Shown: in pieces, positions 10,877 through 29,744 of the stretch | Position numbering within the stretch: position 1 is the first letter of the stretch | How the letters are laid out: each line of letters begins with the position of its first letter | DNA from: Gordonia desulfuricans NBRC 100010 | GTDB lineage: Bacteria > Actinomycetota > Actinomycetes > Mycobacteriales > Mycobacteriaceae | Assembly: GCF_001485495.1 (NCBI RefSeq) | Contig: NZ_BCNF01000065.1 | Span: 1-53,369, forward strand | DNA: 53,369 nucleotides | Direction of reading: 5' to 3' | Program-made: the position numbers and the translations under genes | The notes under the pieces: model-generated | The model's database searches: none | What the model saw: the letters and a program-made list of their open reading frames with translations, nothing else | Told to the model about the DNA's origin: nothing

Positions 10877-12193
10877 TCAGGCGAGTCGGTCGGCGACGCG
10901 TTCGAGGGCGGCCACACGGCTGCCCTTGACCAGCACGGCGTCACCGGCGGCGGTGCCGGCGAGTGCGGCGACCGCCTCGTCGACGCCGGCAACATGGGTG
11001 GCCGACGGCCCGTAGGCCGGTTCGTCGACGGCGATCACCTCGATGCCCAGGTCACGGGCCTGTTCGGCAACGGCGACGTGGTGGCGGTCGGAGTCGTCGC
11101 CGAGTTCGGCCATGCTGCCCAGCACCGCCACCCGACGACCCGCGTTCAGGGTGGCGAGGGAGCGCAGCGCCGCCGACATCGACGTCGGGTTGGCGTTGTA
11201 GGCGTCGTTGATCACGATCACCCCGGCCGCGGTGGTGGTCATCTCCATCCGCAGCCCCGACAGCGCGGCACCGAGCAGACCGCCGGCCATCGCCTCCACC
11301 GGCACACCCAGGCCACCGGCCGCGGCGGCCGCGGCCAGGGCGTTGGCCACCTGGTGCTCGCCGCGGGCACCGAGGCGCACCGCGGTCGATCCCCACGGGG
11401 TGTGCAGCCGGAACGATGCGCGCAGCTGGTCGTCGAGGGTGATGTCGGTGGCCGACACATCCGCCGACGGTGTCAGCCCGTAGCTGAGCACCCGCGCACT
11501 GGTCCGCGGCGCCATCCCGATGACCACCTCGTGGTCGGCGTTGAGCACGGCGATGCCGTCGGCGGGCAGGGCCTCGATCAGCTCCCCCTTGGCCTGGGCG
11601 ACGGCGTCGATGCTGCCGAACAGCTCCAGGTGCACCGCCTCCACCCGGGTGATCACGCCGACGGTGGGATGGGCGATGGAACACAGATGCGCGATGTGGC
11701 CGATCCCACGGGCACCCATCTCGGCGACGACGGCCTCGGTGTCGTCGGGGGCGTTGGCCAGGGTCAGCGGCAGGCCGAGCTCGTTGTTGAACGACTTCTC
11801 ACTCGCCGCGGTCACGAACGTGGTCGCGAGCACTCCGGCGAGGAGATCCTTGGTGGAGGTCTTGCCGACCGATCCGGTCACGCCGACCACCCGCTCGGGC
11901 AGCCGACGCCGCACCGCGCGGCCCAGATCGGAGAACGCCTCGGCGGTGTCGGCGCAGGTGATGGCGGTGGCATCGACCCCGGCGACCGGTCCGGTGGCGG
12001 TCAGGTAGGCACTCGCGCCGGCCTGGACCGCGGCCGGGATGAAGTCGTGTCCGTCACGGGCGGCGACGATCGGGACGAACAGCCGGCCCTCGGCCACGGC
12101 CCGGGAGTCGATACTCGCCCCGGTCACGGTCACGTCGGGTCCGATCAGTTCTCCACCGACCGCGTCGGCCACATCACTCGCCTGGATACGCAC
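10877..12193 (-). CDS. murF: UDP-MurNAc-tripeptide--D-alanyl-D-alanine ligase
   Basis: The 438-residue protein is a Mur ligase. It has the N-terminal MurF substrate domain (ASIDSRAVAEGRLFVPI), the ATP-binding GVTGSVGKTSTKD (about residues 105-117), a central domain with SFNNELGLPLTL and the C-terminal NDAYNANPTSM. MurF adds the D-Ala-D-Ala dipeptide to complete the cytoplasmic peptidoglycan precursor. It lies apart from any division-cell-wall cluster and is divergent from ddl, which makes its dipeptide substrate. Whether the genome carries a second murF in the usual cluster cannot be told from here. Confidence 0.93.
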   Translation of the reverse strand: MRIQASDVADAVGGELIGPDVTVTGASIDSRAVAEGRLFVPIVAARDGHDFIPAAVQAGASAYLTATGPVAGVDATAITCADTAEAFSDLGRAVRRRLPERVVGVTGSVGKTSTKDLLAGVLATTFVTAASEKSFNNELGLPLTLANAPDDTEAVVAEMGARGIGHIAHLCSIAHPTVGVITRVEAVHLELFGSIDAVAQAKGELIEALPADGIAVLNADHEVVIGMAPRTSARVLSYGLTPSADVSATDITLDDQLRASFRLHTPWGSTAVRLGARGEHQVANALAAAAAAGGLGVPVEAMAGGLLGAALSGLRMEMTTTAAGVIVINDAYNANPTSMSAALRSLATLNAGRRVAVLGSMAELGDDSDRHHVAVAEQARDLGIEVIAVDEPAYGPSATHVAGVDEAVAALAGTAAGDAVLVKGSRVAALERVADRLA

Positions 12194-12253
12194 GCCACAA
12201 CCCTAGGCCCCATGCCGAGAACTGCCACGGTCGGTGGCCGTAAGGTGACAGGC

Positions 12254-13330
12254 ATGTCGACTCCCCTGCTGCGTCTGGTTGTTCTCTACGGTGGCGCGTC
12301 CGCAGAACACGACGTCTCCCGGGTGACCGCGGCACATGTCATCGCCGCCGCCGATCCGGCCAAGTACTCGGTGGTCCCGATCGGCATCGGCAAGGACGGC
12401 ACCTGGGTTCGCAACGACAAGGTGATCGCCGCGCTCTCCGACGGCACCCCGCTGCCGTCGGAGCTGGAGATCGCCGGCACCATCGTCGCCCCGCTCGCCG
12501 AGCTGCGCGCCCATTCCGAGGCCGCGCTCACCGTCGTGCTGCCGCTGCTGCACGGCCCGCACGGCGAGGACGGCACCATCCAGGGGATGCTCGAACTGTT
12601 CGGTCTGCCCTACGTCGGCACCGGGGTGCTCGGCTCGGCGGTGTGCATGGACAAGGCGATGGCCAAGGTCGTCGCCGCACAGGCCGGAATCCCGCAGTGC
12701 AGGTGGGTCGAGTTCCGCGACGGTGTGGACGACTCGAAGACCATCACCTTCCGGGCGATCGAAGAACTCGGTCTGCCGGTGTTCGTCAAACCCGCCAACA
12801 TGGGCTCGTCGGTGGGGATCACCAAGGCCCACGACGCCGCCGAGCTCGATGCCGCGATCAACCTGGCGCTGCGCTACGACGACGTCGTGGTGATCGAGGA
12901 GATGGTGACCGGCCGCGAGATCGAGGTGGCCGTGCTCGGCAACACGCTGCCCGAGGCATCGGTGCCGGGCGAGATCGTGCCGGGCAGCGAGTTCTACGAC
13001 TACGAGGACAAGTACGTCACCGGTGCGGCCGAACTGGTCATCCCGGCACCGCTTCCCGGCGCCGACGCCGCACAGGTGCGGGAGCTCGCCGCGCAGGTGT
13101 TCGGCGCGATGCGGTGCACCGGGCTGGCCCGGGTCGACTTCTTCTTCGAGGAGAACGGCCGTGGCTGGCTCCTCAACGAGGTCAACACCATCCCCGGCTT
13201 CACCCCCGGATCGATGTACCCCAAGCTGTGGGAGGCCACCGGCGTGCCCTACGCCGACCTCATCGACCGCCTGGTCACTCTGGCACTGGAGTCCCATCAG
13301 CGACGCTCGGGTTTCTCCACCGAGCACTGA
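12254..13330 (+). CDS. ddl: D-alanine--D-alanine ligase
   Basis: This 358-residue ATP-grasp enzyme joins two D-alanines. The N-terminal GGASAEHDVS, the ATP-grasp block VKPANMGSSVGI, the omega-loop FYDYEDKY and the C-terminal NEVNTIPGFTPGSMYP are all present. The Tyr ending the EDKY motif is kept, as expected for D-Ala-D-Ala rather than D-Ala-D-lactate ligases. ATG 12254 is preceded by TAAGGTGACAG. It is divergent from murF with a 60-base shared regulatory region, so the two consecutive steps can be co-controlled. Confidence 0.93.
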   Translation: MSTPLLRLVVLYGGASAEHDVSRVTAAHVIAAADPAKYSVVPIGIGKDGTWVRNDKVIAALSDGTPLPSELEIAGTIVAPLAELRAHSEAALTVVLPLLHGPHGEDGTIQGMLELFGLPYVGTGVLGSAVCMDKAMAKVVAAQAGIPQCRWVEFRDGVDDSKTITFRAIEELGLPVFVKPANMGSSVGITKAHDAAELDAAINLALRYDDVVVIEEMVTGREIEVAVLGNTLPEASVPGEIVPGSEFYDYEDKYVTGAAELVIPAPLPGADAAQVRELAAQVFGAMRCTGLARVDFFFEENGRGWLLNEVNTIPGFTPGSMYPKLWEATGVPYADLIDRLVTLALESHQRRSGFSTEH

Positions 13331-13986: not shown

Positions 13987-14376
13987 ATGAACGCTTACGT
14001 CCCGATCCTGGTGCTCGGGGCGATCGCTGTGGCGTTTGCGGTGTTCTCGGTGTTCATCGCATCGGCGGTCGGCCCGCGCCGAGACAACCGTGCCAAACTC
14101 GAAGCCTACGAATGCGGCATCGAGCCACTCGGCAAAGGCGCCTTTGCCACCCCATCCGGTTCCAGACCGTCGGTGGTGCAACGCATTCCGGTCAAGTACT
14201 ACCTCACCGCCATGCTCTTCATCATCTTCGACATCGAGATCGTGTTCCTGTACCCGTGGGCCGTCGCCTTCGACGCCCTCGGCTGGTTCGGCCTGGCCGC
14301 GATGGCCCTGTTCATCGTCAACGTCTCCGTTGCCTACGCCTACGAATGGCGCCGCGGAGGACTCGCTTGGGATTGA
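13987..14376 (+). CDS. nuoA: NADH-quinone oxidoreductase subunit A
   Basis: This 129-residue membrane subunit has three hydrophobic helices and the conserved loop [15 protein letters not shown], whose Cys marks the quinone-site loop. It is the first gene of the nuo operon. A GGAGGG ribosome-binding site lies about 9 bases before the ATG. The 212 bases upstream (13775-13986) must hold the operon promoter, but I could not identify it with confidence. Confidence 0.97.
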
Positions 14377-14447
14377 CCGTTCCGGCCGGTGCCCGACGCC
14401 CCTGAACCGGGGCCGACAGCACGGCCGGCGACACGAGGAGGTGCCCG

Positions 14448-15002
14448 ATGGGTCTCGAGGAGAGACTGCCCAGCGGATTCCTGCTGAGTACCGTCGAGGA
14501 ACTCGCCGGATTCATGCGCAAGGGCTCGTTGTGGCCGGCCACCTTCGGGCTCGCGTGCTGTGCGATCGAGATGATGGCCACCACGTCGGGCCGCTACGAC
14601 CTCGCCCGCTTCGGCATGGAGGCCTTCCGCGCATCCCCCCGGCAGGCCGACCTGATGATCGTCGCCGGCCGGGTGAGCCAGAAGATGGCGCCGGTGCTGC
14701 GGCAGATCTACGACCAGATGACCGAACCCAAATGGGTTCTCGCGATGGGGGTGTGCGCGTCGTCGGGCGGCATGTTCAACAACTACGCGATCGTCCAGGG
14801 TGTCGACCACGTGGTCCCCGTCGACATCTATCTGCCCGGCTGCCCGCCGCGCCCCGAGATGCTGCTCAACGCGATCCTCGCGCTACACGACAAGATCGCA
14901 CAGACCCCGCTCGGGGTGAACCGCGAGGAGGCGATCTGGGCCGCCGAACAGGCTGCGCTGCAGTCGGCTCCGACCATCGAGCTCAAGGGGTTGCTGCGAT
15001 GA
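14448..15002 (+). CDS. nuoB: NADH-quinone oxidoreductase subunit B
   Basis: The 184-residue peripheral subunit carries iron-sulfur cluster N2, the last electron carrier before quinone. The tandem Cys pair is visible in [11 protein letters not shown], and the other ligands lie in VCASSGGMF and [10 protein letters not shown]. It follows nuoA after 71 bases and has a strong GAGGAGGTG ribosome-binding site. Its stop overlaps the nuoC start (ATGA). Confidence 0.97.
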
Positions 15003-15685
15003 CCGAACACAACCGGCAGGCCGGTGACGAGGTGATCGGCGTACGCCGCGGCCTGTTCGGGGTGCACGGCAGCGGCGACACCTCCGGCTACGGCGGCCTG
15101 GTGGAGCCGGTCACCCTGCCCGCCGCGGCACGCCCGTACGGCGGGTACTTCGACGCCGTCGCCGACGACCTGGCCACCGCACTCGCCGACGCCGGCGGTC
15201 CGGCCTACGACGCCGCGATCGAGAAGGTGGAGATCCACGCCGGCGAGATGACGCTGTACGTGGTGGCCGAACATCTGCCCGCGGTGGCACTGACCCTGCG
15301 TAACCATCCGGCGCTGCGTTTCGAGTTGTGCTTGGGCGTCAACGGGGTTCACTATCCCGACGACGCCGGCCGCGAGCTGCACGCGGTGTATCCGCTGGCC
15401 TCCATCACCCACAACCGCCGGCTGCGGCTGGAGGTGGCCGCATCCGACGCCGATCCGCACATCCCCAGCCTGTGCGATGTCTACCCCACCAACGACTGGC
15501 ACGAGCGGGAGACCTACGACTTCTTCGGGATCGTCTTCGACGGGCACCGCGCCCTGACCCGGATCGAGATGCCCGACGACTGGGTCGGACATCCGCAGCG
15601 CAAGGACTACCCGCTGGGTGGTGTCCCGGTGGAGTACAAGGGAACCCGCATCGCGCCCCCTGACCGGCGGAGGTCGTACTCATGA
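14999..15685 (+). CDS. nuoC: NADH-quinone oxidoreductase subunit C
   Basis: The frame is open much further upstream, but ATG 14999 overlaps the nuoB stop by 4 bases and gives 228 residues, the usual size. The 30-kDa subunit signature [16 protein letters not shown] is present, ending with [14 protein letters not shown]. It is separate from nuoD here, unlike the NuoCD fusion of E. coli. It helps shape the peripheral arm around the quinone site. Confidence 0.95.
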
Positions 15686-17007
15686 CGAAGGTGGAGCACC
15701 GTCATCCCGAGCACACCTACACCGTGTCGGGACAGGACTGGGACGAGATCGTCTCCGAGGTCGCCGCGCGGGCCGCCGAACACCACGGCGAGGAGCGCAT
15801 CGTGGTGAACATGGGCCCCCAGCATCCCTCCACCCACGGGGTGCTGCGCCTGATCCTGGAGATCGAGGGTGAGACGGTCACCGAGGCCCGCTGCGGAATC
15901 GGCTACCTGCACACCGGGATCGAGAAGAACCTGGAGTACCGCAACTGGATTCAGGGGGTCACCTTCGTGACCCGGATGGACTATCTGTCACCGTTCTTCA
16001 ACGAGACCGCCTACTGCCTCGCGGTGGAGAAGCTGCTCGGTATCACCGATGCGATCCCCGAGCGTGCGTCGGTGATCCGGGTGATGCTGATGGAGCTCAA
16101 CCGGATCGCCAGCCACCTCGTCGCCCTGGCCACCGGCGGGATGGAACTCGGTGCGGTCACCGCGATGTTCAGCGGATTCGGCATCCGGGAACGAATCCTG
16201 GACCTGTTCGAGCTCGTCACCGGCCTGCGGATGAACCACGCCTACATCCGGCCCGGCGGTGTGGCCGCCGACCTGCCCGACGGCGCCACCGACGCGATCG
16301 CGGCCACCCTCGCCGACCTACCCGGCGAACTCGACAAGCTCGGGGATCTGCTGACCGACAACTACATCTGGAAGTCACGTACCTGCGACGTCGGATATCT
16401 CGACCTCGCCGGATGCATGGCCCTGGGCATCACCGGACCGGTGCTGCGGTCCACCGGCCTGCCCCACGACGTCCGCAGGTCCGAACCCTACTGCGGCTAC
16501 CAGGACTACGAGTTCGACGTGATCACCGACACCACCTGTGACTCCTACGCCCGGTACGTGATCCGGGTACGGGAGATGTACGAGTCGGTGCGGATCGTCG
16601 AGCAGTGTCTGGCCCGGCTGCGGCCCGGCCCGGTGATGGTCGCCGAGGCCGACATCGCCTGGCCCGCCGACCTCACCGTCGGACCCGACGGTCTGGGCAA
16701 CTCGCCCGCACACATCGCCGAGATCATGGGCGAGTCGATGGAATCGCTGATCCACCACTTCAAACTGGTCACCGAGGGGATGCGGGTCCCGCCCGGCCAG
16801 TGCTACGTGGCGGTCGAATCGCCCCGCGGCGAACTGGGCGTACACATGGTCTCCGACGGCGGAACCCGGCCCTACCGAGTACATTTTCGCGATCCGTCGT
16901 TCACCAACCTGCAGGCCGTCGCCGCGATGTGCGAGGGCGGCATGGTGGCCGACGTGATCACCGCGGTGGCCAGTATCGACCCCGTGATGGGAGGGGTGGA
17001 CCGATGA
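15682..17007 (+). CDS. nuoD: NADH-quinone oxidoreductase subunit D
   Basis: The 441-residue 49-kDa-type subunit carries the quinone-binding motif [18 protein letters not shown] and [20 protein letters not shown]. In this subunit the catalytic His and Tyr line the quinone pocket. The C-terminus [13 protein letters not shown] is intact. It overlaps nuoC and the following nuoEF by 4 bases at each end. Confidence 0.97.
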
Positions 17008-19085
17008 GTGAACCCGTCTTCGTCGAGCTCGGGGTGGGCCCGCCCGACCCCGTCGCCGAACCCCCGGCCACAGGCGGCCCCGGCGCCCATCCACCGATTA
17101 CGTTCTCCGGACCCGATTCCTACCCCGACGACGTCCTCGCGCGGTTGCGTGCACAGGCCGGTCCGGTGATCGCCCGCTATCCGCAGTCCCGCTCGGCACT
17201 GCTGCCGCTGCTGCACCTGGTGCAATCGGAGGACGGACTCATCTCCCGCGCCGGAATCGGCTTCTGCGCCGAGGTTCTCGGACTCAGCGACGCACAGGTC
17301 GCCGCCGTCGCCACCTTCTACTCGATGTTCCGGCGCACGCCCACCGGCGAGTACCTGATCGGGGTGTGCACCAACACGCTGTGCGGGATCGTCGGCGGCG
17401 AGGAGATCCTGCGCCGGCTGTGTGATCACCTGGGCGTGGAACCCGGTGGCACCACGTCGGATTCGCGGATCACCGTGGAGGAGATCGAGTGCAACGCGGC
17501 CTGCGATCGCGCGCCGGTGGTGATGATCAACTGGGAGTTCTTCGACACCCAGACCCCCGAGTCGATCGTCGAGATCGCCGAGGATCTGCGTGCCGGGCTG
17601 GTCCGGGCGCCGTCACGCGGGTCGTCGACGCTGTGCGGATTCCGCGACACCGAACGGATCCTGGCCGGGGTGGACGTGGGGGCACGCCCGGCCTCAGATC
17701 CCTCTGCACCGGATTCGTCCGAGGCCACCGCCGAACCCGAACCCGAACCCGCCGAGGTTCCGGTGCTCACCCGGCACTGGGGTGAGCCACAGTCGTGGAC
17801 GCTACCCAACTATCTGCGGCACAACGGCTATCGCGGCCTGCGCACCGCACTCGGGATGGCACCCGACGAGGTGATCGAACTGGTCAAGGCCTCCGGGCTA
17901 CGCGGGCGCGGAGGCGCAGGCTTCCCGGTGGGCATGAAGTGGTCGTTCATCCCCCAGTCCGACGACCCGCACGCGCCGCCGCACTACCTCGTGGTCAACG
18001 CCGACGAATCCGAGCCGGGCACCTGCAAGGACATGCCGCTGATGCTGGCCGACCCGCACTCGCTGGTGGAGGGCGCGATCATCGCCGCCTATGCCATCCG
18101 GGCCCGGCATGCGTTCATCTATCTGCGCGGCGAGGTGGTCGGTGTGCTGCAACGGCTTCGCGCCGCCGTCGACGAGGCCTATGCCGCAGGCTATCTGGGC
18201 GAGAACATCCTCGGTTCCGGGGTCGACGTGGAACTGCTGGTGCACGCCGGGGCCGGTGCCTACATCTGCGGTGAGGAGACGGCACTGCTCGACTCGCTGG
18301 AGGGTCGTCGCGGGCAGCCCCGACTACGACCGCCGTTCCCCGCGGTCGCCGGACTGTATGCCAGTCCGACGGTGGTCAACAACGTCGAGTCCATCGCGAG
18401 TGTGCCGGCGATCCTGCGCAACGGGATCGACTGGTTCCGGGCGATGGGCACCGAGAAGTCGCCGGGCTTCACGCTGTACTCGCTGTCGGGACATGTGCGC
18501 AACCCCGGCCAGTACGAGGCCCCGTTGGGGATCACGTTGCGGGAGTTGCTCACCCGGGCCGGCGGGGTTCGACCGGGGCACACCCTGAAGTTCTGGACCC
18601 CGGGCGGCTCGTCCACCCCGATGTTCACCGCCGGGCACCTCGACGTCCCGCTCGACTACGAGGGGGTGGGTGCGGCCGGTTCGATGCTGGGCACCAAGGC
18701 ATTACAGATCTTCGACGAGACCACCTGCGTGGTGCGGGCAGTACTGCGGTGGACGAGGTTCTACGCCCACGAATCGTGCGGCAAGTGCACGCCCTGCCGC
18801 GAGGGCACCTACTGGCTGGTCCAGCAACTACGCCGGATCGAGTCCGGGCAGCTCACCGAACCGGAGATCGTCGCGGCCCTCGACGTCCTCGCCGACGTGA
18901 CCGACGGGGTCGTCGGGAAGTCGTTCTGCGCACTCGGTGACGGCGCAGGCAGCCCCATCACGTCCTCGCTCGCCCACTTCCGCGACGAGTATCTCGCCCA
19001 CGCGCGCACCGGCCACGGCCCCGGTGGCTGTCCGTTGGATCCAGCCGCGGCCACGGTGTTCGCCGATCACGGAGGTGTCCGATGA
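17004..19085 (+). CDS. nuoEF: NuoE-NuoF fusion, NADH dehydrogenase module (N1a, FMN, N3)
   Basis: One uninterrupted frame of 693 residues encodes both subunits. Residues 1-225 are NuoE, the thioredoxin-like [2Fe-2S] subunit with Cys122, 127, 163 and 167 ([16 protein letters not shown]). A low-complexity linker (about 226-253, ending PEPEPAEVP) leads into NuoF: FMN/NADH-binding [16 protein letters not shown] (298-313), [12 protein letters not shown] and the N3 cluster ESCGKCTPC plus Cys642. Relatives encode NuoE and NuoF as separate overlapping genes. The GTG at 17763 (residue 254), with GAGG just upstream, could still allow separate NuoF translation. No stop codon ends NuoE. The fusion is tied to the rest of nuo by 4-base overlaps. 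Confidence 0.93.
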
Positions 19086-21472
19086 CCGCGTTGTCCGACC
19101 GCCCCACCGGCACCGAACAGGCGAATCCGGTGTCGGCGACCATCGACGGCATCGAGATCCACGTCCGCCCCGGCACCCTGGTGATCCGGGCGGCCGAGCA
19201 GGTGGGCATCACCATCCCCCGCTTCTGCGATCATCCGCTGCTCGCACCGGTCGGTGCGTGCCGGCAGTGCCTCGTCGACGTCGAGGGTCAGCGCAAACCA
19301 CTCGCCTCGTGCACCACCACGGTCACCGAGGGCATGGTGGTGCACACCCAGTTCACCTCCGGCGCCGCGGCCAAGGCGCAGGGCGGGGTGATGGAGCTGC
19401 TGCTGATCAACCATCCCCTCGACTGCCCGATCTGCGACAAGGGCGGCGAGTGCCCGCTGCAGAACCAGGCGATGACCGCCGGTCGCGCCACCTCACGGTT
19501 CACCGGGACCAAACGCACCTACGTCAAGCCGGTGCCGCTGTCCACGGCGATCCTGCTCGATCGTGAACGATGTGTGCTGTGCGCCCGCTGTACCCGCTTC
19601 GCCGATCAGGTGGCCGGTGACCCGCTGATCGATCTCGCCGATCGCGGTGCGCTGCAACAGGTCAGCACCGCCGACGGGACACCGTTCGACTCCTACTTCT
19701 CCGGCAACACCGTGCAGATCTGTCCGGTGGGGGCGCTCACCGGCACCGACTACCGCTTCCGGGCCCGGCCGTTCGATCTGATCTCCACCCCGAGCGCGTG
19801 TGAGCACTGCGCGAGCGGCTGCGCCCAGCGGGTCGACCACCGGCGCGGAACGGTGTTGCGCCGCCTGGCCGCCGACGACCCCGAGGTCAACCAGGAATGG
19901 AACTGCGACAAGGGCCGCTGGGCGTTCGCCTATGCCACCGCCGCGGACCGGCTGACCACCCCGCTGGTCCGTGACGCCCACGGCGAACTCCGCGAGGTGT
20001 CGTGGGCCCATGCACTGCGCGCGGCCGCCGACGGTCTCGCCACCCGCCGCACCGGGGTGCTGACCGGTGGCCGGGTCACCGTCGAGGACGCCTACGGATA
20101 CTCGCGGTATGCGCGAACCGTGTTGCAGACCAACGACATCGACTTCCGAGCCCGCGCCCACAGTGCGGAGGAGAGCGCCTTTCTCGCCGACCGGATCGCC
20201 TCCCGCACCGACGATCTCACCTACGCCCAGCTGGTCGCCGCGCCGACGGTCCTGCTGGTCGGATTCGAACCCGAGGAGGAGTCCCCCATCGTCTTCCTGC
20301 GGTTGCGGCGGGCGGTACGGGAGTCCCGCACCCGGGTGGTCACCATCGCCCCGTGGCGCAGTCCCGGGAACGCGAAGCTGTCGGCGACGCTGCTGCCGAC
20401 CGCCCCCGGCGGCGAGGCAGCACTCCTCGAGAATCCCGACACCGCAGCGCTACTGGATGATCCGGCCTCGGTGATCGTCGTCGGTGAGCGTCTGGCCACC
20501 AGTCCCGGAGGACTGTCGGCGGCGGTGTCGCTCTCGGCGCGCACCGGCGCCCGACTGGTCTGGATTCCCCGGCGGGCCGGGGAACGCGGCGCCCTCGAAG
20601 TGGGTGCGACGCCCGGCCTGCTGCCCGGAGGGCGCCCCGTCTCCGACGACACCGCCCGCACCGAGATGGCGGTGGCCTGGGGGGTGCGGTCCCTACCGAC
20701 CCGCCCCGGCCGCGACACCTCGGACATCCTGGCCGCGGCCGCCGCCGGCGACCTCGACGCGCTGCTCGTCGGCGGGGTCGACCCCGCCGATCTCGCGAAT
20801 CCCGATCTCGCTGTGCGAGCGCTCGACACGGCCTTCGTGGTGAGCCTGGAGATCCGACGTTCGGCGGTCACCGATCGTGCCGACGTGGTGCTCCCGGTGG
20901 CCACCGTCGCCGAGAAGTCCGGCACCTTCCTCGACTGGGAGGGACGGGCCCGCAGTTTCCCGGCCGCGCTGGGTGAGACCGGCCGGATCTCCGACCACCG
21001 GGTCCTCGACGCGCTGGCCGCCCACACCGGTGTCGACCTGGAATGCGATGACGCCGAGGACATCCTGACCCAACTCGGCACCATCGGGCCGTGGAGCGGA
21101 CCCCGGGAGCTCCGCTCGTCCACCCCGGCATCCGGCCCACCCGATGTCGGTGACGGACAGGCGGTCCTGGCGTGCTGGGCCCACCTGCTCGATCACGGCC
21201 GGATGCAGGACGGTGCACCGCATCTCGCCGGCACCGCCCATCCCGCCCGCGCACGGCTGTCGGCGACGACCGCTGCACGCGTGGGCGTGGGCGACGGGGA
21301 CCGCCTCGAGATCCACACGGCCACCGGATCGCTGGTCCTTCCGCTGGCGGTCACCGAGATGGTCGACGACGTGGTGTGGGTGCCCACCAACTCCGCCGGC
21401 GCCCCACTGCCCGCGCTGTTGGGGGCCGGAGCCGGGGACGTCGTCGGACTCCGACCGGGAGGTGACCGATGA
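19082..21472 (+). CDS. nuoG: NADH-quinone oxidoreductase subunit G
   Basis: The 796-residue subunit carries an N-terminal [2Fe-2S] ferredoxin domain ([20 protein letters not shown]), the His/Cys-ligated N5 cluster ([14 protein letters not shown]), the N4 cluster ([14 protein letters not shown]) and a further cluster motif CEHCASGC...NCDKG, the N7 type. A degenerate molybdopterin-oxidoreductase domain follows. It relays electrons from NuoEF to NuoB/NuoI. ATGA overlap with nuoEF. Confidence 0.96.
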
Positions 21473-22803
21473 CCACCTCGTTCTCCGCTGCCACCGAGTA
21501 CCCGACACTCACCGACTTCGGGCACGATCCGTGGTGGCTGGTGATCGTCAAGGCGGTGGCGGTGTTCGCCTTCCTCATCGTCAACCCGCTGGTCGCGATC
21601 CTCGCCGAACGAAAGATCATGGCGCGCATGCAGAACCGGATCGGACCCAATCGGGTGGGTCCACGCGGACTGTTGCAGAGCCTGGCCGACGGCGTGAAAC
21701 TGGCCCTCAAGGAGGGGATCACCCCGAGCGGCGTCGACAAGGTGATCTACCTGCTCGCCCCGATCATCGCGGTGGTGCCGGCGGTCATCGCGTTCGCGGT
21801 GATCCCGTTCGGCCCGATGGTGTCGGTGTTCGGTCACCACACGCCGCTGCAACTCACCGATCTGCCGGTGGCCGTGCTGTTCATCCTCGCGATGGCCTCG
21901 GTCGGGGTGTACGGGATCGTCCTGGCCGGATGGTCGTCGGCGTCGACCTATCCGCTGCTCGGCGGGCTGCGGTCCACCGCGCAGGTGATCTCCTATGAGA
22001 TCGCGATGGGGCTGACCTTTGCCGCGGTCTTCCTCGACGCCACCACCATGTCGACGTCGGGAATCGTGGCCGGCCAGCACAATTACTGGTACGCCCTGGT
22101 CCTGCTGCCGTCGTTCGTGATCTATGCGGTGTCGATGGTCGGTGAGACCAACCGCGCCCCGTTCGATCTGCCCGAGGCCGAGGGCGAACTCGTCGGCGGC
22201 TTCCACACCGAGTACTCGTCACTCAAGTTCGCCATGTTCATGCTCGCCGAATACATCAACATGGTCACCGTGTCGGCGCTGGCCACCACCCTGTTCCTGG
22301 GCGGCTGGCAGGCCCCGTGGCCGCTGTCGCTGATCGACGGCGCCAACTCCGGATGGTGGCCGATCCTGTGGTTCACCATCAAGGTCTGGGTGTTCCTGTT
22401 CGTGTTCATCTGGCTGCGCACCAGCCTGCCGCGACTGCGCTACGACCAGTTCATGAATCTGGGCTGGAAGGTACTGATCCCGGTGTCGCTCATGTGGGTG
22501 ATGGTGGTGGCGCTGATCCGGGTGTGCATCCCCGGAGCCGACAACACGGTGCCGCGGGCGCTGGTGTCGGCGGCCGCCGGACTCGTCGTCACCGTCGGCC
22601 TGCTGCTGATCATCCGTCGGGTGATGCGCCCCCGCCGTCCCGCAGCTCCCCCGGCTGCAACCGCCGGTGCGACAACCGCATCCGGTCCGCCTGCCTTCGA
22701 TGCCTTCGCCGGTGGCTTCCCGGTACCCCCGCTCCCCGGCCAGTCCCTACCCGGCCACACACCGGGTCCCACGCCGACCGCAAAGGAGACCTCCGATGCC
22801 TGA
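21469..22803 (+). CDS. nuoH: NADH-quinone oxidoreductase subunit H
   Basis: The 444-residue membrane subunit has eight or so hydrophobic helices and the conserved [19 protein letters not shown] loop and [17 protein letters not shown] motif that join the quinone cavity to the proton channels. The C-terminal tail (about residues 385-444) is a Pro/Ala/Gly-rich cytoplasmic extension not found in E. coli NuoH. Its end overlaps nuoI by 8 bases. Confidence 0.97.
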
Positions 22804-23449
22804 CACCTCGCGTACAGAATCGGCCGGCGCCGCACCGCCCCCCACCGACGCACCCCGGCCGGGGACCACCCGCACCGATGCACCCCGGCAGGATCCGTTC
22901 GGCCCGGTCGGCGGTCTGCGCCGCACCTTCGAGGCGATGTTCGGCCCCACCGTCACCGAACAGTATCCGGAACAGAAACGGCCCCCGGCACCGCGCTATC
23001 ACGGTCGGCACCAGCTCAATCGGCATCCCGACGGGCTGGAGAAATGTGTCGGGTGCGAACTGTGTGCGTGGGCGTGCCCCGCCGACGCGATCTTCGTCGA
23101 GGGCGCCGACAACACCGACGCCCAACGCTTCTCGCCCGGGGAACGCTACGGCCGGGTGTACCAGATCAACTACCTGCGGTGTATCGGCTGCGGGTTGTGC
23201 ATCGAGGCGTGCCCCACCCGGGCGCTGACCATGACCGGCGACTACGAACTCACCGACGACAACCGCGCCGACCTGATCTACGAGAAGAACCAGCTGCTCG
23301 CACCGCTCCCGCCGGACACCGAACCGACGCCCCATGATGTGACCGCGCAGGTCGCCGCCGGCACCGCCCCCACCGAATCCGACTACTACCGTGGCCGGGT
23401 CGGCGCGGACGGCATGGTGCACGACACCACCGGGACGGTCTCGGCATGA
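22796..23449 (+). CDS. nuoI: NADH-quinone oxidoreductase subunit I
   Basis: The 217-residue ferredoxin-like subunit has two [4Fe-4S] motifs, [12 protein letters not shown] and [12 protein letters not shown] (clusters N6a and N6b). An unusual Pro/Thr-rich stretch of about 40 residues precedes the core, and an acidic tail follows. The start at ATG 22796 has AAAGGAG about 8 bases upstream and lies inside the end of nuoH. Confidence 0.96.
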
Positions 23450-24207
23450 CCGGGGAGGGCGTCCTGTTCTGGATCGTCGCGGTGATCGCCGTGGCCGGCG
23501 CCCTCGGTGTGGTGTTCGCGGCCAAGGCGGTGTACTCGGCGATGTTCCTGGCCACGACGATGATCGTGCTCGCCGTCGCCTATGTGGCCCAGGGCGCGCT
23601 GTTCCTGGGTGTGGTGCAGGTGGTGGTCTACACCGGTGCGGTGATGATGCTGTTCCTGTTCGTGCTCATGCTGATCGGCGTCGACTCGTCGGATTCGCTG
23701 GTGGAAACCCTTCGGGGCCAGCGTATCGCCGCAGTGATCATCGGGATCGGCTTCGGCGCCCTGCTGTGCGGCGGGATCGGTACCGCCGCGGTTGCCGCGA
23801 CCACCTCCCCCACCACCGGGGTACCGACGGCCACCCAGGGCAACATCGAGGCGATCGCCGAACTCATCTTCGTCCGGTACCTGTGGGCATTCGAGCTGAC
23901 CGGGGCGCTGCTGATCACCGCCACCCTCGGCGCGATGGTCCTCACCCATCGGGAACGCTTCGGCCCCAAACGGTCTCAACGGGAACTGTCGATCGAGCGG
24001 GTGCGCCGCGGAACCGGCATCACCCCGCTGCCGAGCCCGGGTGTGTTCGCCCGGCACAACGCCGTCGACGTGCCGGCGCTGCTGCCCGACGGCCATCCCA
24101 CCGATCTGTCGGTGTCGGCGATCCTGCGTTCGCGAGAACCCGATGCCCCCTCGGCTCCCGCCCCGGCCGATCCCCTACCGGCGCCGCGGACGGAGGACCG
24201 GCGATGA
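23446..24207 (+). CDS. nuoJ: NADH-quinone oxidoreductase subunit J
   Basis: The 253-residue membrane subunit has five hydrophobic helices (residues 1-175), including the [19 protein letters not shown] segment with the pi-bulge region typical of NuoJ. A hydrophilic tail of about 80 residues extends beyond the last helix. It overlaps nuoI and nuoK by 4 bases each. Confidence 0.96.
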
Positions 24208-24518
24208 ACCCCGACAACTATCTGTATCTCGCGGCGGTGCTGTTCGCGATCGGCGCCGCCGGAGTCCTGCTGCGGCGCAGCGCGATCGTGGTGTTCATGT
24301 GTATCGAGCTGATGCTCAACGCGGCGAACCTCTCGTTCGTGTCGTTCGCCCGCAAGCAGAGTTCTGGTGGCATACCGAATCTCGACGGTCAGGTGATCGC
24401 CTTCTTCACCATGGTGGTCGCCGCGGCCGAGGTGGTGGTGGGTCTGGCCATCATCATGATGATCTTCCGGTCCCGGCGGAGTGCTTCCGTCGACGACGCG
24501 GCGCTGCTGAGGCGATAG
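24204..24518 (+). CDS. nuoK: NADH-quinone oxidoreductase subunit K
   Basis: The 104-residue protein has three hydrophobic helices. The two conserved membrane glutamates of this MrpC-like subunit are visible in [15 protein letters not shown] and [17 protein letters not shown] 24204 overlaps the nuoJ stop, which sets the start. Confidence 0.97.
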
Positions 24519-24531
24519 CGGAAGGGGCGGC

Positions 24532-26448
24532 ATGAGTACCGAAACGTCCGGGAACATCCTGTGGTTGGTGCCGCTGCTGCCGCTTGCCGGGGCGCTGGTG
24601 CTGCTGGTGTCCGGGCGCCGCACCGACCGCTGGGGCCATCTGCTCGCCTGCGTCCTGGCGGTCGCGTCGTTCGTGGTGGGACTGGCCCTGTTCATCGGGA
24701 TGCTCGGGCGCCCCACCGCCGACCGTGCCGTCCACACGGTGGCCTACACCTGGCTCGACGTCGCCCCGGCCGGCGGGTCGAGTGGGCTGTCGGTGGACAT
24801 GGGGCTCTACCTCGATCAGCTGTCGATGTGTTTCGTCCTGCTGATCACCGGCGTCGGCAGCCTGATCCACATCTACTCGGTCGGCTACATGGCCCATGAT
24901 CCCGACCGCCGCCGATTCTTCGCCTACCTCAACCTGTTCCTGGGCGCCATGCTGGTGCTGGTCCTCGCCGACACCTACCTCGGGCTCTATCTCGGCTGGG
25001 AGGGTGTGGGTCTCGCCTCCTATCTGCTGATCGGGTTCTGGCAGCAACGGCCCGCGGCGGCGACCGCCGCCAAGAAGGCGTTCGTGGTCAACCGCGTCGG
25101 CGACACCGGCCTGGCGGTCGCCCTGATGGTCATGTTCGCCACCTACGGGTCGGTCTCGTTCCAGACGGTGTTCGCCGGTGCCGAATCCACCGGCCGCGCA
25201 ACGCTCACCGCGATCGGACTGTTGCTGCTGCTGGCGGCGTGCGGAAAGTCCGCCCAGGTGCCGCTGCAGTCGTGGCTCGGGGATGCGATGGAGGGCCCCA
25301 CCCCGGTGTCGGCGCTGATCCACGCCGCCACCATGGTGACCGCCGGGGTGTATCTCATCGCCCGCTCCAATCCGATCTTCGATCTCGCCCCCGACGCCCG
25401 GCTGGCGGTGTGCGTGGTGGGTGCGGTCACCCTGCTGTTCGGTGCCGTGATCGGTTGCGCCAAGGACGACATCAAGAAGGCGCTCGCCGCGTCGACGATG
25501 AGTCAGATCGGCTACATGGTGCTGGCCGCCGGGCTCGGTCCGGCCGGGTACGCCTTCGCAATCATGCATCTGCTCACCCACGGATTCTTCAAGGCCGGGC
25601 TGTTCCTCGGTGCCGGGTCGGTGATGCATGCGATGGACGACGAGACCGACATGCGGCGCCTCGGCGGATTGCGGTCGGTCATGCCGATCACCTTCGTCAC
25701 CTTCGGGATCGGCTATCTGGCCCTGATCGGGGTGCCGCCGTTCGCCGGGTTCTTCTCCAAGGATCTGATCATCGAGGCGGCATTCGGTTCCGGCGGGGCA
25801 CGCGGTGTGATCTTCGGTTGTGCCGCACTTCTCGGCGCCGGGATCACCGCGTTCTACATGACCCGGATGATGCTGATGACGTTCTTCGGGGAGCGCCGCT
25901 GGGCACCGGATGCGCACCCGCACGAGTCGTCGCCGGTGATGACCGGCCCGATGATCCTGATCGCCGTCGGCTCGGCGATATCGGGAGCGTTGCTGGTGGC
26001 CGGGGACTCGCTGGTGAACTGGCTGACACCGGTTGTCGGCGAGCACCATTCGGAGTTGCCGATGCCGACCTGGGTGCTCACCGTGATCATCCTGGCGGTG
26101 GTGGCGGTGGGCTTCGCCGCCGGATATGCGGTGTACGCGCGCCGCCCGATCCCGGTGACCGCCCCCGAGGAGGTGAACGCACTGACCCGCGCGGCCCGCC
26201 GCGACCTGTACGGGGATGCGTTCAACGAGAAGGTCCTGATGGTGCCCGGGCAGGCCCTCACCCGGTCTCTGGTGGGCGTGGAGGCCGGTGCCGTCGACGG
26301 CGCCGGTCAGGGGGTGGGTGCGCTGGTCACCGCGTCGTCGAATCGAATCCGGGTCTGGCAGAGCGGATATGTGCGCTCGTATGCGTTGTCGATGCTCGCC
26401 GGGGCCACCGTGGTGGTGGCCGCGCTGATGCTGGTGAGGGGGTTGTAG
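24532..26448 (+). CDS. nuoL: NADH-quinone oxidoreductase subunit L
   Basis: The 638-residue antiporter-like subunit pumps protons at the far end of the membrane arm. Key elements are [17 protein letters not shown] (transmembrane Glu), [10 protein letters not shown], and [26 protein letters not shown]. The lateral-helix region occupies the C-terminus. The spacing of 13 bases after nuoK includes GGAAGGGG. Confidence 0.97.
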
Positions 26449-26451
26449 GCG

Positions 26452-28032
26452 ATGAGCTGGTTGACCATCCTGTGGCTGGTGCCGGCCGTGACCGCGGTGG
26501 GGGTGCTCGCCGTGCCCGCCTCCCGGGCCGACGTGGCGAAGTGGATCGGGCTCGGCGGATCGCTGGTGACCCTCGCCCTCTCGATCGGCCTGGCCGTCGG
26601 ATTCGATCCGAATGGCGCTCGCTACCAGTTCATCTCCGATGTGGAGTGGATTCCGTCGTTCGGTGCGCGCTACCAGCTGGGTCTCGACGGTATCGGCCTG
26701 GTCCTCGTGCTGCTCACCACCGTTCTGCTGCCGCTGCTGATCCTGGCCGGGTGGCCGGATGCCGACCACACGGGCTCGCTGGATCATGCGGGCGGGCGCC
26801 GCCAGAAGGGCCCGCATGTCTACATCGCGTTGATGCTGTCGGTGGAGGCGATGGTGGTGATGAGCTTCGTCGCCACCGACGTCCTGCTGTTCTATCTCGT
26901 GTTCGAGGCCATGCTCATCCCGATGTACTTCCTGATCGGCGGGTTCGGGAGCGGCCCGGCGCGCTCGGCGGCCGCGGTGAAGTTCCTGCTGTACAACCTG
27001 TTCGGCGGTCTGCTGATGCTCGCGGCGGTGATCGGACTCTACGTGGTGACCGCGAATGCGTCGATCGGCGAGGACGGGCACGGGACCTTCGGGTTGCCGG
27101 CCATCGCCGACGCCGTCGCCGACGGTCGGCTGCACTCCGATTCCGGTGTGATGATGCTGCTGTTCGGCGGGTTCATGATCGCCTTCGCGATCAAGGCGCC
27201 GTTGTGGCCGTTCCATTCGTGGCTGCCCGACTCCGCGGTGGCCGCCACCCCGGCGTCGGCGGTGCTGATGATGGCGGTGGTCGACAAGGTGGGCACCTTC
27301 GCGATGCTGCGGTTCTGTCTGTTGCTGTTCCCCGAGGCATCCAAGACCTTTGCGCCGCTGATCATCACCCTCGCGGTGATCGGCATCGTCTACGGCGCGA
27401 TCCTCACCATCGGGCAGACCGATGTGATGCGGCTGATCGCCTACACCTCGATCTCGCACTTCGGGTTCATCATCGTCGGGATCTTCGCGCTCACCCCGCA
27501 GAGCCAGGGCGGGGCCACGCTCTACATGGTCAATCACGGAATCTCCACCGCCGCACTGTTCCTGATCGCGGGGTTCCTGGTGTCGCGGCGCGGCAGCCGG
27601 ATAATCGCCGACTACGGCGGAGTGCAGAAGGTGGCACCGGTCCTCGCCGGCACCTTCCTGGTGGCCGGACTGGCGACGCTGTCCCTGCCCGGCCTGGCCC
27701 CGTTCGTCAGTGAGTTCCTGGTGCTGGTGGGTACGTTCACGCGGTATCCGATGGCGGCGGTGGCGGCGACGAGCGCGCTGGTGCTGTCGGCGATCTACAT
27801 CCTGTGGCTGTATCAGCGGATGATGGGTGGGCCGGTCCGGCCGGTCGAGGGACCGGGCGCGGCGCGGGCGGCCATGCCGGATCTGCGGCTGCGTGAGCGG
27901 GTGGTGGTGGCACCGCTCCTCGTCCTCCTGCTGGTCCTCGGCTTCTATCCGCAGCCGCTGCTCGACCTGATCGATCCCGTCGTCGATCACACGATCTCGA
28001 CGGTGCAGCCCGAGTCCGGAGGTGCGCGATGA
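26452..28032 (+). CDS. nuoM: NADH-quinone oxidoreductase subunit M
   Basis: The 526-residue antiporter-like subunit has about 14 hydrophobic helices. The conserved transmembrane Glu lies in LFYLVFEAMLIPMYFLIG and the channel Lys in FAIKAPLWPFHSWLPD. It starts 3 bases after the nuoL stop and overlaps nuoN by 4 bases. Confidence 0.97.
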   Translation: MSWLTILWLVPAVTAVGVLAVPASRADVAKWIGLGGSLVTLALSIGLAVGFDPNGARYQFISDVEWIPSFGARYQLGLDGIGLVLVLLTTVLLPLLILAGWPDADHTGSLDHAGGRRQKGPHVYIALMLSVEAMVVMSFVATDVLLFYLVFEAMLIPMYFLIGGFGSGPARSAAAVKFLLYNLFGGLLMLAAVIGLYVVTANASIGEDGHGTFGLPAIADAVADGRLHSDSGVMMLLFGGFMIAFAIKAPLWPFHSWLPDSAVAATPASAVLMMAVVDKVGTFAMLRFCLLLFPEASKTFAPLIITLAVIGIVYGAILTIGQTDVMRLIAYTSISHFGFIIVGIFALTPQSQGGATLYMVNHGISTAALFLIAGFLVSRRGSRIIADYGGVQKVAPVLAGTFLVAGLATLSLPGLAPFVSEFLVLVGTFTRYPMAAVAATSALVLSAIYILWLYQRMMGGPVRPVEGPGAARAAMPDLRLRERVVVAPLLVLLLVLGFYPQPLLDLIDPVVDHTISTVQPESGGAR

Positions 28033-29744
28033 CCCCCGATCCCACGACCGTCACCACACTGGCGGCGATCACCCCGCCCGATGTCGAATACTCGCTGCTC
28101 TCACCGATGTTGATCGTCTTCGGGGTCGCGGTGGCGGGTGTGCTGGTGGAGGCCTTCGCATCGCGTTCGGGACGTCGGCGGATTCAGCCGGTGCTGTCGC
28201 TGGTCGGCCTGGTGGCCGCGCTGGCCGCGGTGATCTGGGTGGCGGTGATCCTGACCCGCGACGGCGGTCAGGGCCGTACCGCGATGTCCGGGGCGGTGGT
28301 GCTCGATCGTCCCGCGATGTTCCTGCAGGGTCTGCTGCTGGTGATCTCGGTACTCGCGGTGGCGTTCATGGCCGAACACGGCCTCGAACGGGTGGTGACC
28401 CCGTCGAAGCGGTTCAGCAACGGCCCCGGTGCGGCTGCGCAGGCCTCGCTCGAGGGCGCCGACGCCGACCTGTTCACCCCGTCGGGGGCCAGTGTGCCCA
28501 ACTCCGACAACGAGTTCGAAGCGACCCGCGCCGGCGGGGTGACCACCGAGGTGTTCCCCCTGACCCTGCTCGCCGTCGGCGGCATGATGCTGTTCGTCGC
28601 CTGCGGTGACCTGCTGACCATGTTCATCGCCCTCGAGGTGTTCTCGCTGCCGCTGTACCTGCTGTGTGCACTGGCCCGCCGACGCCGCCTGCTCTCCCAG
28701 GAGGCGTCGCTGAAATACTTTCTGCTGGGCGCCTTCTCGTCGGCATTCTTCCTGTTCGGTGCGGCCTTCGCCTACGGGTCGACGGGGTCGCTGAACCTCA
28801 CCGAGATCGGTGCCGCACTGGCGGTCGGGGGCAACGACGTCACCCGCCTGGCCGTGATCGGCCTGGCCATGCTGGCGGTGGGATTGCTGTTCAAGGTGGG
28901 CGCCATGCCGTTCCACGCGTGGGTGCCCGACGTGTATCAGGGTGCGCCGACGCCGGTGACGGCCTTCATGGCCGCGGCTACCAAGGTCGCCGCATTCGGC
29001 GCGCTGCTGCGGGTGTTCTGGGTGGCCTTCGGACCGCTCGTCGACGAGTGGCGGCCGGTGCTGTGGGCGGTGGCCATCCTGACCATGATCGTCGGGGCGA
29101 TCATGGCGGTCACCCAGTCGGATGTGAAACGCCTGCTGGCGTATTCGTCGGTGACCCACACCGGGTTCATCCTGCTGGGGGTGATCGCCTTCGATCCCAC
29201 CCGCACCGATCAGCCGGGATTGTCGGCGACGTTGTTCTACCTTGCGGCGTACGCCTTCTCGACCTTCGGCGCATTCGCCACCACCGCGGTGGTCCGTGAG
29301 CCGGTGGACGCCGGCCGACGGTCAGGAGTGTCGGGACCGCACCTGTCCGGGCGGGAGGCCACCGGACTCGACCAGTGGGCCGGGCTGGGCCGGCGGTATC
29401 CGCTTGTCGGCGCGATGTTCTCGATGTATCTGCTCGCCTTCGCCGGAATCCCGCTGACGAGTGGCTTCATCGCCAAGTTCGACGTCTTCGCCGCGGTCGC
29501 CGGAAACGGCGGCGCGGTGCTCGTCGTGATCGGCGTGATCGGCAGTGCCATCGCCGCCTACTTCTACATCCGGATCATCGTCGCGATGTTCTTCGACGAC
29601 GTCCCCCTCGACGCCCCGCACGTGGTGCGGCCGAGCCCGCTGACAACCGTGCCGATCGCGGTGTGCACCGCGGTCACGATCGTCCTCGGGTTCTACCCAC
29701 AGCCACTGCTGGACCTGGTCGGCAACGCGGCGTCGTTCCTGTGA
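28029..29744 (+). CDS. nuoN: NADH-quinone oxidoreductase subunit N
   Basis: The 571-residue antiporter-like subunit is the last gene of the operon. LFKVGAMPFHAWVPDVYQGAPTPV and MAVTQSDVKRLLAYSSVTHTG blocks identify it. It is longer than the E. coli protein (485) because of a hydrophilic insertion at about residues 125-175 and an extra loop near 420-450. No strong terminator is visible in the 34 bases before the convergent DUF4234 gene. Confidence 0.96.
   Translation: MTPDPTTVTTLAAITPPDVEYSLLSPMLIVFGVAVAGVLVEAFASRSGRRRIQPVLSLVGLVAALAAVIWVAVILTRDGGQGRTAMSGAVVLDRPAMFLQGLLLVISVLAVAFMAEHGLERVVTPSKRFSNGPGAAAQASLEGADADLFTPSGASVPNSDNEFEATRAGGVTTEVFPLTLLAVGGMMLFVACGDLLTMFIALEVFSLPLYLLCALARRRRLLSQEASLKYFLLGAFSSAFFLFGAAFAYGSTGSLNLTEIGAALAVGGNDVTRLAVIGLAMLAVGLLFKVGAMPFHAWVPDVYQGAPTPVTAFMAAATKVAAFGALLRVFWVAFGPLVDEWRPVLWAVAILTMIVGAIMAVTQSDVKRLLAYSSVTHTGFILLGVIAFDPTRTDQPGLSATLFYLAAYAFSTFGAFATTAVVREPVDAGRRSGVSGPHLSGREATGLDQWAGLGRRYPLVGAMFSMYLLAFAGIPLTSGFIAKFDVFAAVAGNGGAVLVVIGVIGSAIAAYFYIRIIVAMFFDDVPLDAPHVVRPSPLTTVPIAVCTAVTIVLGFYPQPLLDLVGNAASFL

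Follow-up and report, generated by a model that had tools for sequence, protein, structure and literature searches.

One gene for NuoE and NuoF in Gordonia desulfuricans, joined at a junction that varies across the genus

The DNA analyzed here, referred to as the window, is a stretch of 53,369 nucleotides from Gordonia desulfuricans NBRC 100010 (contig NZ_BCNF01000065.1). It carries a cluster of nuo genes in which nuoE and nuoF appear as a single gene, nuoEF (Table 1). The original prediction of one stop-free frame for NuoE and NuoF was borne out, as 17004-19085 is open for 693 amino acids and encodes both sets of domains. As in other natural single-chain fusions, no stop separates the two parts and NuoE comes first: the product runs from the NuoE domain through a flexible junction to the full NuoF. 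In Pfam, 2Fe-2S_thioredx (NuoE) matched residues 55-195, Complex1_51K residues 294-468, SLBB residues 494-539 and NADH_4Fe-4S residues 579-666. All four exceeded their cut-offs; SLBB_2, matched fifth, fell marginally short (26.7 vs 27). The NCBIfam model for NuoF, TIGR01959, scored 605.6 bits (cut-off 558.65). Together with the FMN-binding, SLBB and 4Fe-4S domains, this identifies the C-terminal half as a predicted complex I NuoF. The N-terminal half is a predicted complex I NuoE, with the NuoE model NF005721 (309.4; cut-off 308) and PF01257 above their cut-offs and the general NuoE model TIGR01958 slightly below (134.8; cut-off 142.4). The calculated mass of the product is 73.5 kDa.

Table 1. 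Features of the nuo cluster and of the fused nuoEF gene in the window.
Feature	Position	Strand	Remark
nuoA-N gene cluster	13987..29744	+	names from Pfam families and order
nuoA	13987	+	
nuoB	14448	+	
nuoC	about 14999	+	
nuoD	15682..17007	+	stop overlaps nuoEF ATG at 17004 as ATGA
nuoEF fused gene	17004..19085	+	693 aa plus stop, stop-free translation
NuoE-like thioredoxin-type 2Fe-2S domain (PF01257)	17166..17588	+	Pfam
NuoE C-terminal tail, residues 213-225	17640..17678	+	homologous to separate-NuoE tail; predicted helix 213-221
Variable junction part, about residues 226-240	17679..17723	+	boundaries by eye
Counterpart of separate-NuoF N-terminal leader, residues 241-254 region	17724..17765	+	by eye
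In-frame GTG with GAGG five bases upstream	17763..17765	+	not conserved as start
NuoF domains: FMN-binding Complex1_51K, SLBB, NADH_4Fe-4S	17883..19001	+	Pfam
nuoG	19082..21472	+	ATG overlaps nuoEF stop 19083-19085 as ATGA
nuoH	21469	+	
nuoI	within 22667-23449	+	
nuoJ	23446	+	
nuoK	near end of 23391-24518	+	
nuoL	24532	+	
nuoM	26452	+	
nuoN	28029	+	

The cluster ligands had been described as intact in both halves, and the expected cysteines, four per half, were indeed present: C122, C127, C163 and C167 in the NuoE half and C592, C595, C598 and C642 in the NuoF half. These residues are the putative cluster ligands. The draft genome (5.43 Mb, 246 contigs) gave a single Complex1_51K match and a single 2Fe-2S_thioredx match, both within 17004-19085. 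The genes of the other complex I (NDH-1) subunits lie alongside nuoEF. In contrast to the nuoD/nuoEF and nuoEF/nuoG borders, the E/F junction alone lacks an ATGA overlap. The longest open frame was a poor guide to gene starts in this part of the window: the NuoC and NuoK domains take up just the end parts of far longer open frames (14036-15685 and 23391-24518, + strand). Similarly, a 778-aa frame at 10994-13330 (+ strand) matched D-Ala-D-Ala ligase at residues 427-762 only, with no Pfam match in its first 426 residues, and its true start is probably further in.

Separate Gordonia NuoF proteins open with leaders such as MIAVSLPSSTPEPAEIPVLSRHW. The 3' part of the window junction looks, by eye, like such a leader, leaving a new stretch of just about 15 residues ahead of it. 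The PEPEPAEVP stretch, which had been taken for a new linker, is therefore largely the leader already carried by separate Gordonia NuoF. An AlphaFold2 model of the product (mean pLDDT 85.4, pTM 0.88) placed the last helix of NuoE at residues 213-221 and the first helix of NuoF at residues 267-272, with pLDDT below 50 at residues 1-25, 232-242, 434-449 and 690-693. Its input comprised 61 rows, five of them fused, and in most NuoE-only rows a stretch of about 15-40 residues was wrongly aligned to NuoF, which weakens the model. No second copy of the window junction was found in its own genome: apart from its own position, a 90-base query hit 25 short stretches at chance level (E values of 0.009 or worse).

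The state of the gene was read from the DNA of 59 Gordonia genomes, of which 26 were fused and 28 split, one was cut at contig ends and four lacked the gene. All 28 split nuoE/nuoF pairs overlap by four bases (ATGA in 18, GTGA in 10). Since genes were classed as fused by their open frame, the keeping of the frame is partly circular as evidence; free of this circularity is the observation that every one of the 54 genes was either fused or overlapping, with no third state. G026, G030 and G031 are fused at the same junction, with 78-79% identity to the window, and G031 is a single-contig assembly, as are the likewise fused G020, G034, G043 and G055. G014, G047, G050 and G056 gave two separate search matches each, yet are fused through longer junctions. 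The assembly of G046 breaks between NuoE and NuoF (L131 and L142, two contig ends); this gene is probably fused but unassembled, since its rpoBC neighbors carry fused genes whose junctions are in some cases long and rich in repeats. Among the genomes without this nuoF, G019, G027 and G053 gave no match and G001 a weak paralogue only. These four form one rpoBC clade (support 100), and complex I was therefore probably lost once.

The fused gene could yield a separate NuoF of about 440 aa from the GTG at 17763 in addition to the full-length NuoEF, as the original prediction had suggested. Of this claim, the presence of the GTG and of GAGG five bases upstream stood; the product from 17763 would hold every NuoF domain, and G033 has a similar site. 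We scanned the fused loci (L158 left out) for ATG, GTG and TTG from 15 codons before the matched NuoE end to 10 codons into the NuoF core. At the 17763 position, the fused relatives closest to the window (G026, G030 and G031) all have GTC. GTG occurs there in 8 of the 26 fused Gordonia genes, and only two of these eight (the window and G033) also have a GAGG/GGAG-like site. Other start codons with such a site lie in the junctions of G040, G055, G009 and G047, at differing places, whereas no in-frame ATG, GTG or TTG was found across the junction of G051, nor in that of G169 from another genus. Moreover, the bases concerned belong to Ala-Glu-Val-Pro-Val codons and can arise by chance. We consider a separate NuoF from this site very unlikely; internal initiation is, as judged from these junctions, no conserved part of fused nuoEF.

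The junctions of the 26 fused Gordonia genes, counted from about residue 216 to 255, span 33-160 aa in 15 different lengths. They are rich in Pro, Ala and Glu, with tandem repeats in some. In six species of group C (defined below), a dispersed repeat lies inside the open nuoEF frame (e.g., L127 and L012). Two 14-mers taken from group-C junctions were counted in 17 of the 59 Gordonia genomes. CCCTGAGGTGCGAG occurred in 187 copies in G055, 183 in G014, 176 in G021, 109 in G047, 14 each in G008 and G040, and 4 in G050, and GAGCGTCACGAAGG in 92 copies in G040, 53 in G021, 30 in G014, 25 in G050, 5 in G033 and 2 in G051. Their reversed-letter controls gave at most one copy. With one mismatch allowed, a search of the 54 junctions (6,989 bases) with these two sequences and a third core gave 18 hits, which fell exclusively in six of the 26 fused genes, those of G008, G033, G040, G047, G050 and G051. 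The DNA encoding the NuoE and NuoF cores at these loci gave none over 93,592 bases. As the repeat sequences were picked from these junctions, the junction hits arise by construction; the informative results are how many copies the genomes hold and that the NuoE and NuoF cores hold none. In G014, opposite repeat copies recur about 80 bases apart, which suggests a short inverted-repeat element. The repeat is absent from the nuoEF junctions of the window and of the genomes with the most copies (G055, G014 and G021). Neither CCCTGAGGTGCGAG nor GAGCGTCACGAAGG had a copy in the genome of the window, which rules out the window junction as a copy of these group-C repeats. A further 14-mer, GAGCGCAGCGAGGA, which came from other linkers, was set aside, as it gave 0-9 copies per genome in the 17 genomes and its reversed-letter controls up to 4.

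The number of fusion events was addressed with a NuoEF genus tree (54 loci plus six outgroups, all six split), an rpoBC tree (57 of 59 Gordonia genomes, fragments G010 and G039 left out) and a NuoD-E-F-G tree (56 loci, 1515 columns). The fused genes fell into group A (G006, G009, G010, G039 and G043), group B (the window, G026, G030 and G031) and group C, which has 17 fused members with the split G012, G017, G024, G041, G049 and G054 nested inside. The fewest state changes were four on the NuoEF genus and NuoD-E-F-G trees and five on rpoBC. In AU tests, whose p values are too sharp because the groups were named after the trees had been seen, rpoBC rejected a single clade of all 24 fused rows (p 3e-44), of B and C (p 2e-5) and of C (p 8e-4; G046 counted in for the latter two), and of A and B (p 7e-4; three of five A genomes), while NuoEF gave p 0.027 for all fused, 0.08 for C and 0.08 for B and C. 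One clade of the fused C members was also rejected on NuoD-E-F-G (p 4e-4), but not on NuoEF alone. A single clade of the six split species within C was not rejected on rpoBC (p 0.18). The fusion in Gordonia arose, as far as these trees tell, more than once.

In two-state models on rpoBC, rooted by our choice on a group of 16 split genomes, both rates with a split root gave lnL -15.27 and fusion only gave -24.61 (9 gains). A fused root with losses only fitted as well as the split root (lnL -14.91, 6 losses), as would be expected if the fusion were ancestral in Gordonia and the split genes had arisen by repeated re-splits. However, the NuoEF tree with its outgroups favors a split root (-15.59 vs -18.09; 4 gains vs 7 losses), all six outgroup loci are split, and the same four-base overlap would have to be rebuilt at each re-split. 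We therefore regard an ancestral fusion as highly improbable. Reversal brought no gain in the two-state models on NuoEF (with outgroups) or NuoD-E-F-G, and the split root on NuoD-E-F-G takes four changes with reversal and five without. Repeated fusion from a split ancestor might be extended to a reading in which the Gordonia nuoE/nuoF junction is a fusion hotspot with at least three independent fusions. In one of these, a dispersed repeat would have inserted between the overlapping genes, initiating or lengthening the fusion and coming to encode linker, and the nested six species would have gone back to the split state and rebuilt the overlap. We find this full scenario conceivable but rather doubtful, and that a repeat element caused a fusion is conjecture.

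In the family scan, 334 of 401 genomes had a match, and 53 of the listed rows were Gordonia. From the best-scoring rows we took, non-randomly, 69 loci outside Gordonia, namely the 28 whose listed match covers NuoE as well as NuoF, plus 41 others, a route that would miss fusions with long junctions. All 41 others were split, with ATGA or GTGA in 18. One apparent fusion, L158 (G258, genus code g30), has nonsense before a normal NuoF leader; it is probably a frameshift error and was dropped from the counts. The 27 remaining fused loci belong to genus codes g9 (11), g27 (7), g13 (4), g21 (2), g23 (2) and g14 (1), of which g21, g23 and g27 have split members too, and in most of the 27 the NuoE tail resembles RPGALEAGGGAGPATLAGL. 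NuoEF-length proteins, proposed as a check on the fusion, were thus found both in Gordonia and elsewhere in the family. A family tree was built from the NuoEF cores of 138 loci. On NuoEF in the family sample, one clade of the 27 was not rejected (p 0.83), and one clade of Gordonia and non-Gordonia fused loci was (p 1.6e-7). The first count of nine state changes in the family sample fell to eight when L158 was dropped. The tree joining the non-Gordonia fused loci surpassed the free tree by 29.7 log units, meaning that the free search had missed it and that the count of nine was too high. The fused genes outside Gordonia may therefore form one clade.

The statement that nuoE and nuoF are separate in mycobacterial relatives held for the loci inspected, as the Mycobacterium loci L045, L047, L051 and L065 and the loci L190, L194 and L211 (g29, which groups with Mycobacterium) were all split. 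The fused genes nevertheless correct the picture of a separate NuoE and NuoF throughout the relatives of Mycobacterium. Among the best 80 named loci, four were fused, from Gordonia, a Rhodococcus MAG, an Acidimicrobiia MAG and a Gemmatimonas MAG. In the phylum scan (351 of 396 genomes with a match), all matches listed from other families start at query residue 195 or later, though distant fusions may appear there as two matches. That an error of sequencing or assembly joined two genes in the window, as the 246-contig draft and the artefact-like L158 might suggest, is practically excluded by the fused relatives, since the same junction is fused in 25 other Gordonia genomes, five of them single-contig, and the window junction reads as sensible protein matching a NuoF leader. 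The NuoE-NuoF fusion in Gordonia is real.

Taken together, nuoE and nuoF in the window very probably form one gene, whose full-length product would be a single subunit of the NADH-input module of complex I. From what is known of complex I, each half would fold and work as usual: the FMN in the NuoF half would be the site of NADH oxidation, the 4Fe-4S cluster of that half would pass the electrons on to NuoG, and the NuoE half would carry the off-path 2Fe-2S cluster. The NuoE tail, the variable insert and the old NuoF leader would together serve as a flexible tether. The ancestral state was most likely split, with a four-base overlap in another frame, and small insertions or deletions would have removed the overlap and brought NuoF into frame with NuoE, more than once. 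The covalent link would then replace translational coupling. A fixed 1:1 stoichiometry, also proposed originally, follows from such a link; any gain from it is less certain, since split Gordonia genes already overlap by four bases. The fusion is probably close to neutral because both tails are free ends, and it probably changes little in the working of the enzyme. In closely related species with a fused or a separate complex I module, effects on assembly and stoichiometry could be compared. In some relatives, moreover, a gene for a core respiratory enzyme has taken dispersed-repeat sequence into its reading frame.

The best solved relatives of both halves are complex I subunits from one structure, PDB 8e9g, which we take to be from Mycobacterium smegmatis. 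Chain F (NuoF) scored 748.5 bits over query residues 252-690 and chain E (NuoE) 267.4 bits over the NuoE part. There, NuoE and NuoF are two chains of 245 and 443 residues, in contrast to the one chain of Gordonia. Single-chain arrangements of a NuoE-like part followed by a NuoF-like part, as in the window, are found in PDB 7e5z_B (572 aa), a subunit of a tungsten formate dehydrogenase, and in PDB 5xf9_A (591 aa), a subunit of an NAD-reducing hydrogenase. Each gave two matched stretches (among 60 of 117 PDB matches listed), and the NuoE part alone matches both too. These belong to other enzyme complexes and are weaker matches than the complex I subunits (277.9 and 298.5 bits, respectively, vs 748.5). 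A role of the window gene as the diaphorase of an NAD-dependent formate dehydrogenase or NAD-reducing hydrogenase was rejected, as its best matches are complex I subunits and its neighbors nuo genes. No published Gordonia NuoE-NuoF fusion was found in our literature search. Such a fusion is described in some bacterial NADH dehydrogenases (PMC6993867) and, among heliobacteria, in Heliobacterium modesticaldum, whereas Heliorestis convoluta has separate genes (PMC7143216). These fusions are from lineages other than Gordonia, and the likeness is by description rather than sequence. As in Gordonia, a single gene encodes the two subunits in these fusions, and the heliobacteria likewise include related species that differ in whether the genes are joined (PMC7143216). 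The Gordonia fusion leaves the known mechanism of complex I unchanged; it is genuine and ordinary, of a kind already known, at a junction that is unusually changeable.
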